From Thermoplasmata archaeon (GTDB taxonomy: Archaea; Thermoplasmatota; Thermoplasmata; Lutacidiplasmatales; UBA184): a DNA stretch of 64,000 bases. A program made the translations under genes and the position numbers. The DNA lies in contig DAHUXZ010000001.1 in NCBI GenBank assembly GCA_027315455.1, positions 1 through 64,000 on the forward strand, given 5' to 3'. Shown in pieces: positions 13,715 through 19,979 of this stretch (within the stretch, counting starts at the first letter, position 1; each line of letters begins with the position of its first letter). Below the pieces are notes generated by a model. It searched no databases. It was given only the letters and a program-made list of their open reading frames with translations, and was not told the origin of the DNA.

Positions 13715-14366
13715 GCCGGTCGACGCGCCGGATCGCCGTCGCCTTGACGTAGAGGACGACGCGGCGCCCCGCGGCGAGGCGAAGGGAGCGGACCGCGCCC
13801 GGGGTGACGCTCGCGACGAGGAGGCGGCCCGCCGCGCGTACCTCGAGGGCGACGGGTCCCGACCGGTGCGCCCGCACCGCGGTCACGACCCCGGAAAGGA
13901 CGTTGCGGGCGCTCGTCGGGAAGCGGGCGAGCGCGACCAGGACCGCCTCGGGGTCGATCGCGCAGCTGACGGGCTCCCCCTCCCGCGCCCGGAACCCGAC
14001 CCAGAGCGTCGCCCGGCCGAGGCGCACCCCCGGCGCCGGGCGGCCGCGGTAGCGGCCCCGGACGATGACCGCCGGAAGTCGTCCCCGCTCCCCGCGGGAC
14101 CGCCCGAGGTCGAGCGCTCCCCGGCCCAGGCCGAGGAGCCGCGTTCCGAGGGGAGTAAGCCGCGTCCGGCCGGCCTCGGCCCCCCCGCGGCGGGTCTCGG
14201 CGACCGCTCCCCCCGCGGCCCGGCGCAACCGGAGCAGGCGATAGACGCCGCGGTCGCGCGGGATCCCGAGGCGCCGGCACGCCCGCACGAGGTTCGGGTC
14301 GAGGGCGAGCGCCTCGAGCAGCGCGACGTCGAGCGGGGTGAGGAGCGTCTCGCGGGCGGCGGTCAC
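13689..14366 (-). CDS. ModE-like regulator: wHTH plus molybdate-binding TOBE-like domain
   Basis: [32 protein letters not shown]...[11 protein letters not shown] resembles Mod[42 protein letters not shown] resembles TOBE. Last gene of the transporter operon. Confidence 0.75.
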
Positions 14367-15391
14367 GCCCCCGCCTCCCCGGCACCGCCGATCGGCCGAA
14401 GGGCGTCCTCGTCCAGGGAGAACCGCAGCGCGTCGCCGATCCCCCCGTTCCCGGCCGACGTCACCCCGCGCTCGAACAGCCTCAGCTCGAGCCCATCCAC
14501 CGCGACACGGATCTCGCGCCCCCCCGGCCGCTCGCGGCGGCCGACGACCCGGCCCGACCAGCCGCCGGTCCCCGCAGCCCGCATCGCCTCGGACGGGACC
14601 CCGATGCCCCCGGGCCCCGCGCGCGCGAGGAGCCAGGCCGCGAGCGAGCCTTCCGGGCCGCCCGCGAGATCCTCGGCCGCGAGGACGTTGTCGTAGCCCG
14701 CGAGCTCCGCGGCGAACCGGGACGGGGGGCGGTCGACGAGCCGGGCCGGGGTGGTGGGGGGAAGGGCGCGTCCCCCGTCCAGGACGAGGAACCGGTCCGC
14801 GACCGCGAAGGCGGTCTCGGCGTCGTGCGTCACGAGGAGCATCGACACCCCCTCGCGCTGCAGGACCCGTCGGATCGATCCGATGAGCGCCCGGCGGGCG
14901 AGGGCGTCCACGGCCGCGAGCGGCTCGTCCCAGAGGAGGAGCCGGGGGCCGGCGGCGAGCGCCCGCGCCATCGCCGTCCGCTGCTGCTCGCCGCCGCTGA
15001 TGGAGAGTACGCTCGCCCGGGCGAGCCGGGTCAGCCCCCAGGCGTCGAGGAGGTCCCGGGTCCGCGCGGCCGTGTCCGCCGCCCCCCGGATCTCGAGCGG
15101 ATAGGCGACGTTCCCCTCGACGGTGCGGTGCGGGAACAGGGCGAGACCCTGCGGGACGTAGCCCATCCGGCGCTCCTCGGGCGGGAGGGCGGCGACCGGC
15201 GTCCCCCCGACCGAGAGCTCCCGGGCGTAAGCCGGGACGAACCCCGCGATCGCGCGCAGGAGCGTCGTCTTGCCGGCGCCGGAGGGGCCGAGGACGGCAA
15301 GGGCGGTCCCCGGCGGGACCTCGAGGTCGACGGGCCCGAGGGCGAAGCCGTCGAGGCGCGCCGTGAGCCCGCGCACCACGAGCGCGCTCAA
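14363..15391 (-). CDS. ABC transporter ATP-binding protein, molybdate/tungstate type
   Basis: LGPSGAGKTTLL, SISGGEQQRTAMARALAAGPRLLLWDEPLAAVDA, C-terminal TOBE-like region. TTG start overlaps permease stop. Confidence 0.88.
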   Translation of the reverse strand: MSALVVRGLTARLDGFALGPVDLEVPPGTALAVLGPSGAGKTTLLRAIAGFVPAYARELSVGGTPVAALPPEERRMGYVPQGLALFPHRTVEGNVAYPLEIRGAADTAARTRDLLDAWGLTRLARASVLSISGGEQQRTAMARALAAGPRLLLWDEPLAAVDALARRALIGSIRRVLQREGVSMLLVTHDAETAFAVADRFLVLDGGRALPPTTPARLVDRPPSRFAAELAGYDNVLAAEDLAGGPEGSLAAWLLARAGPGGIGVPSEAMRAAGTGGWSGRVVGRRERPGGREIRVAVDGLELRLFERGVTSAGNGGIGDALRFSLDEDALRPIGGAGEAGA

Positions 15392-16245
15392 ACGAACCTC
15401 CCGAGGCCGGCCCACGCCGGCGACCCCCGGCGGGCGGCGAGGCGGGCCGCGACGAACCGCGCGAAGGCGAGCAGGACGAGGACCGACGCGGCCGCGGCCG
15501 CGCCGGGCAGGTCGCCGATCTGGTAGAGGCTGAAGACGTAGACCGAGACCGGGCTCGTCACCGGGCCCGCGTAGCCCGACGAGGGGTAGACGACGTTCGC
15601 GAGGATGAGGAAGCCCCCGATCTCGCTGACCGACCGGGCCCAGGCGAGGAGGAGACCGGCGGAGATCCCCCGCGCCGCCACGGGGGCGGTCACCGTGGCG
15701 AAGGCGGACGCCGGGGAGGCGCCGAGGCTCCGCGCGGTCTCGATCAGGCGCGCGTCGACCGCCCGGAACGCCGATTCGCTCGCGAGCACCGCGTACGGGG
15801 CGCTCACGAAGATCATCACGAGGACCGTCCCCCAGATCGTCTGCACGATCGGCAGCCCGGCCCGGATCGCGAGCGCCCCGAGCGGGGCGGACGGGGCGAA
15901 GAGCAACAGCAGGGCGAGACCGCCCACGAGGTGGGGCAGGACGATCGGCAGGGTGACCGCCGACTCGACGAGCGTGCGGCCGCGGAAGGGGCGGCGGGCG
16001 AGGAGATAGCCGAGGGGCAGCCCGAGCACGGCGATCGCCCCGAGGGAGAGCGCCGAGGCGAGGAGGGTGAAGGCGAGGGCCGCGCGCATCCCCGGGGCGA
16101 GCGCGGCGGCGCCGATCGCCGACGGCGAGACGGAGGCGAGGAGGGCGGCGAGGGGGAGGAGGAGGAGAGCGAGGAGCGAGCCGGCGGCGAGGATCTGGAC
16201 GGCCCGCCACGCCCCCGGCCGCCGCCCCCGGCCGGCCGCGGCCAT
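15388..16245 (-). CDS. ABC transporter permease, molybdate/tungstate type
   Basis: TM-rich; LIETARSLGASPASAFATVTAPVAARGISAGLLLAWARSVSEIGGFLIL. Confidence 0.85.
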   Translation of the reverse strand: MAAAGRGRRPGAWRAVQILAAGSLLALLLLPLAALLASVSPSAIGAAALAPGMRAALAFTLLASALSLGAIAVLGLPLGYLLARRPFRGRTLVESAVTLPIVLPHLVGGLALLLLFAPSAPLGALAIRAGLPIVQTIWGTVLVMIFVSAPYAVLASESAFRAVDARLIETARSLGASPASAFATVTAPVAARGISAGLLLAWARSVSEIGGFLILANVVYPSSGYAGPVTSPVSVYVFSLYQIGDLPGAAAAASVLVLLAFARFVAARLAARRGSPAWAGLGRFV

Positions 16246-16249
16246 CCGT

Positions 16250-17320
16250 TCAGAGCTCCGCCGCGAGGTCGGTCGGCAGCGGAACGACCATCGGGGCGAG
16301 GACGGCGGGCAGCGCGCCGGGCCCCTCGACCCAGGCCGGCACGATCGGGACGAACCCCGACGCGTTGAGGAGGGCCGTGCCCTGGGGCGCGACGAGGAGG
16401 TGGATGAACAGCGCCCCGAGCGCGGCGTTCGGGGCGGTCGTCGGGACCGTCGCGGCGAAGGCCAGGGGCGCGCCGTGGACCGTCGTGAGCGAGCCGTTGG
16501 CCGCGAGGATCCCGGTCGACGCCTGGGCGTAGGTCGCCACGCTCGCGGGGTCCATCGCCCCGAGGTCGACCCCCGCCGGGAGCGGGACGTAGGCCAGCCC
16601 GTGGGCGACGGCGAAGGACCGGTAGGTGAACGCCGCCTGGACGACGTGGGTCGACAGCAGCGTGGCGATCGCCGTCTCCGGCTCCTCGCGCGCCGTGGCC
16701 GGATCGACCTGGGCGAGGGTCCCCGGCCCGCCCGAGTAGAAGTGGCCGTAGAGGGCGCCGAGCGAGCCCATCGTCTCGAGGCCCTCGAGCTCGAGGACGA
16801 AGATGCCGTTGTAGCCGTTGGGGTCGATCGACGCGTTCGCGACGCCCAGCACGACCCCCGGGGCGACGATCTTCTCCGCCCAGTTCGTCGCGTTGATCCC
16901 GGCGAGCGCGCTGGCCGTCGGGTCGTAGACGAGCACCTCGGGGTCCGAGGCGAAGACGACCTGCCAGGCGGCGTAGTTCGGGTAGAGCAGCTCGGGGATC
17001 AGGCGGAAGTCGGCGGCCGCCGCCACGTCGTAGGCCTGGTGCAGCTGGGCGACCGCGCCGAGCGCGGCGAGGCTCCCCTCATAGAGCTGGGCCGCGAACG
17101 GGCTCTCGACCCCCGGCGACTCGTTGGCAAGGAGGTCGGCGAGCGAGGGAAAGACGGTCCCGAGCGTCCCGGCCGCGGTGATCGACAGCACCGGGGAACC
17201 CGACCCCGGCGCCGGAGGGGCGAGGGTGGGGCCGCGGAGAAGGTAGCCCCCCACGGCCCCGGCGGCGACGGCCAGCACGGCGATCGCGATCACCCACGGG
17301 CGCGGAACCGGCGGAGCCAC
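16250..17320 (-). CDS. Substrate-binding protein of molybdate/tungstate ABC transporter
   Basis: Signal anchor WVIAIAVLAVAAGAVGGYLL; LSITAAGTLGTVFPSLADLL; tungstate/molybdate-type SBP layout. Start set to GTG 17320 from promoter spacing; the track uses TTG at 17341. Confidence 0.8.
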   Translation of the reverse strand: MAPPVPRPWVIAIAVLAVAAGAVGGYLLRGPTLAPPAPGSGSPVLSITAAGTLGTVFPSLADLLANESPGVESPFAAQLYEGSLAALGAVAQLHQAYDVAAAADFRLIPELLYPNYAAWQVVFASDPEVLVYDPTASALAGINATNWAEKIVAPGVVLGVANASIDPNGYNGIFVLELEGLETMGSLGALYGHFYSGGPGTLAQVDPATAREEPETAIATLLSTHVVQAAFTYRSFAVAHGLAYVPLPAGVDLGAMDPASVATYAQASTGILAANGSLTTVHGAPLAFAATVPTTAPNAALGALFIHLLVAPQGTALLNASGFVPIVPAWVEGPGALPAVLAPMVVPLPTDLAAEL

Positions 17321-17344
17321 CGTTGTGGGAGATTCCCACAACGG
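17320..17344. promoter_or_regulatory. Perfect inverted repeat CCGTTGTGGGA-GAT-TCCCACAACGG, candidate operator
   Basis: 11-bp arms 17320-17330 and 17334-17344, between a TATA-like CTTTATC (minus strand, 17344-17350) and the GTG start of the SBP gene. Confidence 0.75.
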
Positions 17345-17366: not shown

Positions 17367-17852
17367 TCAGAGCGCGCCGCGCCGGCCGAACGGCCCGTAG
17401 CGGTACCAGGCGCGGCCGACGACGCTCGCGAGCGGGACCGGGCCGAACTGCCGGCTGTCCCGGGCGCGGGCCGAGCGGTCGGAGAGGACGAAGACGTGGC
17501 CCGGCGGGACCTCGAGCTCCTCGAGCGCGTCGGGGTCGTCGGGGGGACCTGCCGACGGGGCCGCGGGACGTACCGCGCCGGTGCGGGTCGCCCGGACGAG
17601 GTCGCCGGGGACGCCGATGATCCGCTTGATGAGGAGCCGTTCGGTGTCGGCGGGGTCGTGGAGCACGATGACGTCCCCGCGGCGGGGGGGGTCGGCGACG
17701 AACGCCGCCGGGTCGACGAGGAGCCGGTCGCCGGGCGCGAGCCCGGGGGACATGCTGCGGTCGTGGACGACGACCCGGAGGCTGCGCGCGCGGCGGGCGT
17801 CGTCCCGGTCCGCCGGGCCGCCTGGCGCCCGAGGGTCCCCGGCGGCCGGCAT
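17367..17852 (-). CDS. sodX: S26-family peptidase, probable nickel-SOD maturation protease
   Basis: RSMSPGLAPGDRLLVD (Ser), RGDVIVLHDP...LIKRIIGVPGD (Lys), GHVFVLSDRSARARDSRQFGPV; no TM anchor; adjacent to sodN. Confidence 0.82.
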   Translation of the reverse strand: MPAAGDPRAPGGPADRDDARRARSLRVVVHDRSMSPGLAPGDRLLVDPAAFVADPPRRGDVIVLHDPADTERLLIKRIIGVPGDLVRATRTGAVRPAAPSAGPPDDPDALEELEVPPGHVFVLSDRSARARDSRQFGPVPLASVVGRAWYRYGPFGRRGAL

Positions 17853-17853
17853 C

Positions 17854-17860
17854 TTTATCC
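17854..17860 (+). promoter_or_regulatory. TATA-like element TTTATCC upstream of sodN
   Basis: Centre lies 26 nt before the ATG at 17883. Confidence 0.6.
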
Positions 17861-17882
17861 GACCGAGGGCCGTGGACGCGCC

Positions 17883-18410
17883 ATGTCGGCTCGACGTGCG
17901 CTCGCCACGGGTCTGCTCGCGATCGCGGACATCGTGTCTCCCCCCCGTCCGGTCTACGCCCACTGCGACATACCGTGCGGGATTTATGACCCCCATGAGG
18001 CCCAGATCTCGGCCCTCACCGTCCTGAGGATGGACCAGCTGATCGGGGAGCTGCCGAAGCCGTCGGCGACGTCCACGCCCGAGGAGCTCGAGGCGTACCA
18101 CGCGAAGCTCTCCCGCTACCTGGCGGTCAAGGAATCCCACGCCGAGCGGGTCAAGCACGAGCTCCGGGTGATCTGGGGCGACTACTTCACCGCCGACCAC
18201 GTCAAGCAGCACCCGACGCTCCACGAGTCGTTCTGGAACGCGATGAAGCTCGCCTCCAAGGCGCGGCAGGGCACGGGGCTCGCGGACGCCCAGGCGCTCG
18301 TCGGCCATGTCCAGCAGATCGCCGAGATCTTCTGGAAGACGAAGGGCGCGACGCCGCGCCGCGCGCCCTCGCTCCAGAAGTCCGGCGGCGAGATCGTCTA
18401 CCCCGCGTAG
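17883..18410 (+). CDS. sodN: Nickel-containing superoxide dismutase precursor
   Basis: Ni-hook HCDIPCGIYDP beginning at codon 27 (17961) after a 26-aa propeptide; VIWGDYFTADHVKQHPTLHESFWNAMKLASKAR and IAEIFWKTK match NiSOD. Confidence 0.95.
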   Translation: MSARRALATGLLAIADIVSPPRPVYAHCDIPCGIYDPHEAQISALTVLRMDQLIGELPKPSATSTPEELEAYHAKLSRYLAVKESHAERVKHELRVIWGDYFTADHVKQHPTLHESFWNAMKLASKARQGTGLADAQALVGHVQQIAEIFWKTKGATPRRAPSLQKSGGEIVYPA

Positions 18411-18455
18411 GGCGCCCGCGGTCGGCGCGGCGTGAACGGCGGCCGGGCGGTTCGG

Positions 18456-19979
18456 ATGACGGAGACCCTTCCCGTTGACGGGTCCTCGCTCACGCTCGAG
18501 CAGTTCCTCGCCGTCGTCCGGGGCGGCTGCGAGGTCTCCATCCCGCCGGAGGCGATGGCCCGTGTCGCGGCGAGCCGCCGCGCCGTCGAGCGCGCGGTGG
18601 CGGCGGGACGCGCCGTCTACGGGGTGACGACGGGGTTCGGGAGCCTCTCCGACCGGGCGATCGCGCCCGGCGACGCCCGCCGGCTGCAGACGGCGCTCGT
18701 GCGCAGCCACTCGAGCGGGGCCGGGCCCGCGCTTCCGCCCGAGGTCGTCCGGGGGATGGTCCTGCTCCGGCTCAACTCGCTCGTCGCGGGCCACTCCGGG
18801 GTGCGCCCGGAGGTCGTCGAGCGGCTCGCGGCCGTGCTCAACCGGCGGCTGGTCCCCTTCGTGCCGGAGCAGGGCTCCGTCGGGGCGTCCGGCGACCTCG
18901 CCCCGCTCGCGCACCTCGCCCTCGCCCTCCTGGGGGAAGGGGCGTTCCTTGACGGGCAGGGACGGTCCGAGCCCGCGGGGGTCGTGCTCGCCCGCGAGGG
19001 GATCCCCCCGCTCCTCCTCGCCGAGAAGGAGGGGGTCTCCCTCGTCAACGGGACCGCCCTCATGGCATCGTACCTCGCGCTCGCCGTCGAGGAGCTCGGC
19101 CTCCTCCTGTCGGCCGCCGAGATCGCCGGCGCGCTGTCGTTCGACGCCCTAAGGGGCCATCCCGGAGCGCTGGACGACCGCCTGGGGGAGATCCGCCACC
19201 TCCCCGAGCAGCGCGAGGAGGCCCGGATCCTCCGCGCGCTCCTCGCGGGAAGCCGCCTCGCCGTCGAGGGCGCCTACCGTGGGCAGGACCCGTACACGCT
19301 CCGCTGCCTGCCCCAGGTGTTCGCCTCGGTGCGGCTGGCCCTCGGGTTCGCGCGCCGGGTGCTGGACGGCGAGCTCAACGCCGTCACGGACAACCCGGTC
19401 GTCTTCGAGGGCGACGAGTTCGTGAGCGGCGGGAACTTCCACGGCCAGCCGCTCGCCCTCGCCCTCGACACCCTCGCGCTCGCCGCGCAGTACCTGGCCG
19501 CGTTCAGCGAGCGGCGGATCTCGCGCCTCCTCCACCCGGCCCTCAACCGCGGCCTCCCGCCGTTCCTCGCGGTCCCGGCGGGCCTCTCCTCGGGATTCAT
19601 GATCCCGCAGTACCTCGCGGCGGCCCTCGTCAACGAGAACGCGACGCTCGTCCACCCCGCGAGCGCCGGGAGCCTGCCGACGTCGGCGGACCAGGAGGAC
19701 TTCGTGAGCATGGGACCGTGGGCCGGGGCGAAGCTGCGCCGGGTCCTCGCGAACGTGTCGACGGTCGTCGCGATCGAGTGGATGGTCGCCGGCCAGGCGC
19801 TCGAGCTGCGCCGGCCCGAGGTCGGGGGGGCCGGCAGCGAGTCCGCGCTGCGGTTCCTGCGCGAGATCGTCGCGCCGTGGTCGGAGGACCGGCCGCCGGC
19901 TCCGGACATCGACCGGCTCACGACGGCCCTCCGCGACGGGTCGGCGGTCCGTCGGGTCCGGCGGGACGTCGCCTTCTAG
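18456..19979 (+). CDS. hutH: Histidine ammonia-lyase
   Basis: YGVTTGFGSLSDRAI, GSVGASGDLAPLAHLALALLGEG (MIO-forming ASG), LINGTALM-like VSLVNGTALMASYL. Confidence 0.95.
   Translation: MTETLPVDGSSLTLEQFLAVVRGGCEVSIPPEAMARVAASRRAVERAVAAGRAVYGVTTGFGSLSDRAIAPGDARRLQTALVRSHSSGAGPALPPEVVRGMVLLRLNSLVAGHSGVRPEVVERLAAVLNRRLVPFVPEQGSVGASGDLAPLAHLALALLGEGAFLDGQGRSEPAGVVLAREGIPPLLLAEKEGVSLVNGTALMASYLALAVEELGLLLSAAEIAGALSFDALRGHPGALDDRLGEIRHLPEQREEARILRALLAGSRLAVEGAYRGQDPYTLRCLPQVFASVRLALGFARRVLDGELNAVTDNPVVFEGDEFVSGGNFHGQPLALALDTLALAAQYLAAFSERRISRLLHPALNRGLPPFLAVPAGLSSGFMIPQYLAAALVNENATLVHPASAGSLPTSADQEDFVSMGPWAGAKLRRVLANVSTVVAIEWMVAGQALELRRPEVGGAGSESALRFLREIVAPWSEDRPPAPDIDRLTTALRDGSAVRRVRRDVAF

Follow-up and report, generated by a model that had tools for sequence, protein, structure and literature searches.

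A nickel superoxide dismutase gene (sodN) and a gene for an S26 peptidase (sodX) are placed head to head in the genome of a soil archaeon of the Lutacidiplasmatales (Thermoplasmatota), which raises the questions of whether they form a working enzyme with its activating protease, and of where the pair came from. The window analysed is a stretch of 64,000 nucleotides from this genome, which is 1.98 Mb in length and 94% complete. The explanation considered here, with high confidence, is that the locus encodes a working nickel superoxide dismutase (NiSOD) and the SodX protease that activates it, that the pair goes back to the ancestor of the family and derives most probably from a Chloroflexota-like bacterium, and that sodN is probably expressed from a leaderless mRNA. 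As such it is an ordinary enzyme pair of a type already reported for Lutacidiplasmatales; what is new is the evidence of joint transfer, the conserved promoter of leaderless type, the long subtype of SodX, and the altered second shell of the active site (S17/H47).

Features of SodN and SodX

The sodN gene (17883..18410 on the + strand, from the ATG at 17883 to the last base of the stop codon) encodes a precursor of 175 amino acids that belongs to the Pfam family Sod_Ni (PF09055; 147 bits against a cut-off of 25, E = 5.4e-43) and to the NCBIfam family TIGR02753, sodN (155 bits against a cut-off of 90). Streptomyces NiSOD chains match it at E = 5e-20, with about 33% identity. The AlphaFold model of SodN (mean pLDDT 91.9) predicts the four-helix-bundle fold: all 16 of its matches in the PDB at E <= 0.001 are NiSOD, the best being Streptomyces NiSOD (TM-score by target up to 0.93). 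A match to PF00159 (hormone) was dismissed as a sub-threshold chance match. As the first-pass annotation had stated, the exact Ni-hook HCDIPCGIYDP (residues 27-37; 17961..17993, + strand) follows a propeptide of 26 amino acids, MSARRALATGLLAIADIVSPPRPVYA (17883..17960, + strand), which is predicted to be removed before His27. The hook residues H1, C2, D3, P5, C6, Y9 and P11 of the mature protein are invariant in 154 of 154 aligned SodN sequences, and His1, Cys2 and Cys6 are the predicted nickel ligands. The Ni-hook, the fold, the need for N-terminal processing before His1 and an adjacent S26 gene are all features in common with the NiSOD (1q0d, 1t6u) and SodX of Streptomyces. A C-terminal extension of about 20 amino acids (18345..18407, + strand), predicted to form a beta hairpin (model strands 158-162 and 170-174), is absent from Streptomyces SodN in the alignment; it was rejected as an archaeal trait, being present in Chloroflexota, Micrarchaeota and proteobacteria too.

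The second shell near His1 differs from that of the only crystallised NiSODs, which are actinobacterial. The hydrogen-bond network of His1, Glu17 and Arg47 that has been described for native (actinobacterial) NiSOD (PMC5722923) is not present in the window SodN, which has Ser17 and His47 where Streptomyces has Glu17 and Arg47. Every family member and all 30 Chloroflexota SodN combine H47 with A, S or G at position 17, Poseidoniia SodN have Ala and Glu at the two positions, and E17/R47 was found, among the SodN examined, only in three actinobacterial sequences, indicating that the network is not a defining feature of the wider SodN family. Thus, mechanistic conclusions based on Glu17 and Arg47 may not apply to most NiSODs.

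The propeptide of Streptomyces SodN is 14 amino acids long, and the greater length of the archaeal one was at first thought worthy of note; 26 amino acids is simply the norm of the family (range 20-26, median 26; the Chloroflexota median is about 20). Ala26, the residue preceding the predicted cut, is invariant in an alignment of 27 sequences.

The divergent sodX gene (17367..17852 on the - strand, with its ATG at 17852, its start codon at 17850-17852 and its stop codon at 17367-17369) encodes a LepB-like S26 serine peptidase of 161 amino acids, the putative NiSOD maturation protease. It is the only protein in the genome that matches Peptidase_S26 (PF10502; E = 9.9e-26), and its AlphaFold model (pLDDT 89.8) matches E. 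coli signal peptidase I. The catalytic dyad of Ser33 (codon 17754..17756, - strand) and Lys76 (codon 17625..17627, - strand) is invariant in an alignment of 23 sequences, and no transmembrane stretch was found in SodX, the highest 19-residue Kyte-Doolittle mean being 0.63. The first-pass description of a soluble, divergently encoded peptidase with a Ser/Lys dyad therefore holds, as does the count of 30 nt (17853-17882) between the two start codons. This geometry is repeated throughout the genus and so is not due to chance.

With 48.1 bits, SodX stays below the curated TIGR02754 cut-off of 63.25 bits, and it scores higher as a bacterial signal peptidase I (TIGR02227, 94 bits), which is its best NCBIfam match. 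Other S26 proteins linked to sodN also fall short of the TIGR02754 cut-off when their trimmed domains are scored (Prochlorococcus, 55.1; Poseidoniia, 62.2; L002, 61.1), indicating that this cut-off is strict. The TIGR02227 match, together with a boundary between VYA and His that looks like a signal-peptidase site and a mildly hydrophobic stretch within the window propeptide, could be taken to mean that SodX is a general signal peptidase lying beside sodN by coincidence, that the propeptide is a secretory signal, and that the enzyme is exported. Set against this are the lack of a membrane segment in SodX, the fact that 49 of 50 family loci keep an S26 gene next to sodN, and the character of most family propeptides, which are not strongly hydrophobic (median best 12-residue mean 0.65, compared with 1.93 for a Roseiconus secretory signal) and so favour a cytoplasmic precursor over a secreted one. 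Moreover, the genome encodes, at another place, a Sec11-like protein that has membrane segments, with its Ser in SDSM and a His in IIHRA replacing the lysine; the assignment is based on a weak model score of 14 bits and a pattern read by eye, and this protein is likely to be the general signal peptidase. SodX, a bacterial-type Ser/Lys peptidase and the sole PF10502 match of the genome, is therefore best explained as the SodN maturation enzyme, and the alternative as a whole is very improbable. The propeptide of the window SodN is somewhat more hydrophobic than most in the family, which leaves some room for export of this particular enzyme.

From these sequences we infer that SodX cleaves SodN before His1 and that the pair provides nickel-dependent removal of superoxide, in line with the initial suggestion of a NiSOD with its maturation peptidase. 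SodN would be synthesised first as an inactive precursor; the soluble SodX would cleave it behind Ala26, leaving His27 (mature His1) with a free amino group and a free side chain, which together with Cys2 and Cys6 would bind nickel supplied by a NicO transporter. The SodN hexamer would then dismutate superoxide arising from aerobic respiration.

Promoter region and neighbouring genes

A TATA-like box of sodN, TTTAT (17854..17858, + strand), lies at -29 to -25 from the ATG and is separated by one base from the start codon of sodX, as the first-pass annotation had noticed in describing the two as abutting. In an ungapped alignment from the sodN ATG, YTTAT or YTTAA begins exactly at -29 in 37 of 38 genus members (for one fixed place, the chance of the motif in a shuffled sequence is 0.00013). 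In 35 of the 38, ATG, GTG or TTG stands where the window has the start codon of sodX. Archaeal promoters have their TATA box about 26-27 nt before the transcript start. The position of the box thus suggests that sodN is transcribed from it into an mRNA that probably begins at or very near the ATG and is leaderless.

The further proposal that expression of sodN and sodX is linked did not gain support: no mirror-image TATA box for sodX was found at the expected place in the 38 genus members, and no protein of the FUR/Nur family was found in the genome, which also rules against the Nur-like regulator that had been suggested as a target of search. Coupled expression is a guess, and TBP bound at the sodN box would make interference as likely as linkage.

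Other genes flank the pair. An aromatic/histidine ammonia-lyase gene (PF00221, 568 bits; 18432-19979, + strand) begins 21 nt after the end of sodN, in the same orientation. An ammonia-lyase gene follows sodN in 37 family loci, usually with a gap of 16-91 nt to the match, whereas no Chloroflexota locus has this arrangement; the two genes may form a sodN-lyase operon. Downstream of sodX is an ABC transporter (14363-17341, - strand) consisting of an ATPase, a permease and an SBP_bac_11 solute-binding protein, for which molybdate, tungstate, sulfate or others are candidate substrates; at least 27 further loci of the family likewise have a solute-binding gene on the side of sodX. Carriage of the pair by a phage or plasmid was considered and rejected: there was no phage match, and the plasmid matches were two chromosome-sized or chromid records with 36-42% identity.

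Distribution in archaea and origin of the pair

Of the 37 genomes of the genus, counting this one, 32 encode SodN, as do 8 of 9 genomes sampled from sister genera of the family, whereas three genomes representing two further families of the order (f2 and f3) lack it; sodN is a core gene of the family. In all, 108 of 390 sampled genomes encode SodN, the additional ones being a genome from another order of the class and many Poseidoniia-like genomes of the phylum. Here Lutacidiplasmatales (f1) and Poseidoniia (f40 and f48) are interpreted group names, the latter based on the phylum, on where the sequences are placed and on PMC10783094. A scan by name also found NiSOD in metagenome-assembled genomes (MAGs) called Micrarchaeota, Aenigmatarchaeota, Heimdallarchaeota, Thaumarchaeota and others, of which those on single short contigs may be mis-binned. 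Nickel SOD (K00518) is listed as a stress-resistance gene of Lutacidiplasmatales, the same order, in passages of PMC9287336 that give no account of the maturation protease, or of the arrangement, promoter and origin of the two genes, and archaeal NiSOD of bacterial origin has already been discussed for Marine Group II/Poseidoniia, of the same phylum (PMC10783094). The locus was initially regarded as unusual for an archaeon; this core gene of the family has published precedents, and its presence in Poseidoniia, Micrarchaeota and other archaea indicates that NiSOD is not exotic in the domain.

Phylogenetic analysis of SodN placed the family in one clade (support 99), its nearest outside relative being a Chloroflexota MAG sequence (L079; 64% identical) as an immediate sister that is weakly supported at 82, in an alignment of only 150 columns, and grouped the Poseidoniia-like sequences with Prochlorococcus (97). 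Joining the family to the Poseidoniia-like SodN was rejected (p-AU 0.0023). In the SodX tree, from a similarly short alignment of 125 columns, one split (98) groups the SodX of the family with the long type found in Chloroflexota, a thaumarchaeal MAG and one Patescibacteria MAG. The divergent arrangement of sodN and sodX was found in 47 of 50 family loci, in 12 of 26 Chloroflexota loci, in the thaumarchaeal MAG and in one other bacterium, whereas nearly all remaining lineages have a tandem arrangement with sodX downstream of sodN on the same strand. The two trees and the layout agree in indicating a history of the pair that is shared with Chloroflexota, and on these grounds, together with the AU tests, the earlier suggestion of horizontal acquisition is upheld. 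The sodN-sodX loci of Chloroflexota (Dehalococcoidia, SAR202 and other MAGs such as L079, L089, L090, L095 and L113) are the closest outside the family and resemble the window pair also in their long LepB-like SodX, but have wider gene spacing, bacterial promoters and some tandem members. The Poseidoniia, in contrast, have a cyanobacteria-like SodN and a short, co-directional SodX just downstream.

Two departures from the prevailing layouts were noted. Three loci (L051, L055 and L088), which belong to genus g24 and a related MAG, have the S26 gene upstream of sodN on the same strand and are rearranged divergent pairs. The genome from another order of the class (G297) has a SodN with the hook HCDYPCGIYDP and a tandem downstream SodX, and its SodN groups with those of Anaerolineales and proteobacteria, apparently representing a third, separate acquisition of NiSOD in Thermoplasmatota.

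Inter-domain transfer of NiSOD is reportedly the topic of Sutherland et al. 2021. The pair occurs in several archaeal phyla and in nearly every genus of the family, within which its descent looks vertical; this might instead suggest an ancient inheritance common to all NiSOD-bearing archaea, with no transfer from bacteria. A single clade of all archaeal SodN was rejected (p-AU 4.6e-06, or 0.043 with Poseidoniia removed), the sister families f2 and f3 lack SodN, and both the layout and the type of SodX track the bacterial neighbours, so that common archaeal inheritance appears very improbable. The roots of the trees and the immediate sisters are poorly resolved, which gives rather more room to a transfer from archaea to Chloroflexota, or by way of a third lineage; this too is unlikely, considering that Chloroflexota show the greater diversity of SodN and SodX, with sequences branching on several sides of the one clade formed by the family. 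The direction of transfer is likely to have been into archaea: both genes would have been present in the ancestor of the family, most likely after a joint transfer from a Chloroflexota-like bacterium that was independent of the acquisition of NiSOD by Poseidoniia. The more specific proposal that the divergent sodN and long-sodX unit passed as a single module between Chloroflexota and the Lutacidiplasmatales ancestor, replacing an Fe/Mn-SOD, is on balance probable, and would imply at least three uptakes of NiSOD in Thermoplasmatota (by Lutacidiplasmatales, by Poseidoniia and by one f19 genome), each with an adjacent protease.

Superoxide defence in the genome and the family

The genome was searched for Fe/Mn-SOD (PF02777), CuZn-SOD (PF00080) and superoxide reductase (PF01880), and none was found, although the same searches were positive in control genomes; because the genome is short of complete, these absences are provisional. 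SodN is the only superoxide-removing enzyme found. Among 25 genomes of the genus that were searched, two (G014 and G017) encode an Fe/Mn-SOD domain besides SodN, and a weak Fe/Mn-SOD fragment was found in one further genome in a separate search. In three fairly complete genomes of the family (G033, G032 and G146), neither SodN nor Fe/Mn-SOD was found, reflecting either assembly gaps or some other defence.

The first-pass annotation had proposed an aerobic or oxygen-exposed lifestyle and a search for nickel transporters as well as for Fe/Mn-SOD. Two haem-copper oxidase (COX1) genes support the lifestyle, a NicO nickel transporter gene was found, and together they fit an oxygen-using, nickel-importing cell. 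The shared history of sodN and sodX suggests that NiSOD travels together with its own activating protease. Most discussion of NiSOD concerns marine microbes and Streptomyces; here it is the stable superoxide defence of a family of acid-soil archaea, and apparently the sole one across the whole family.
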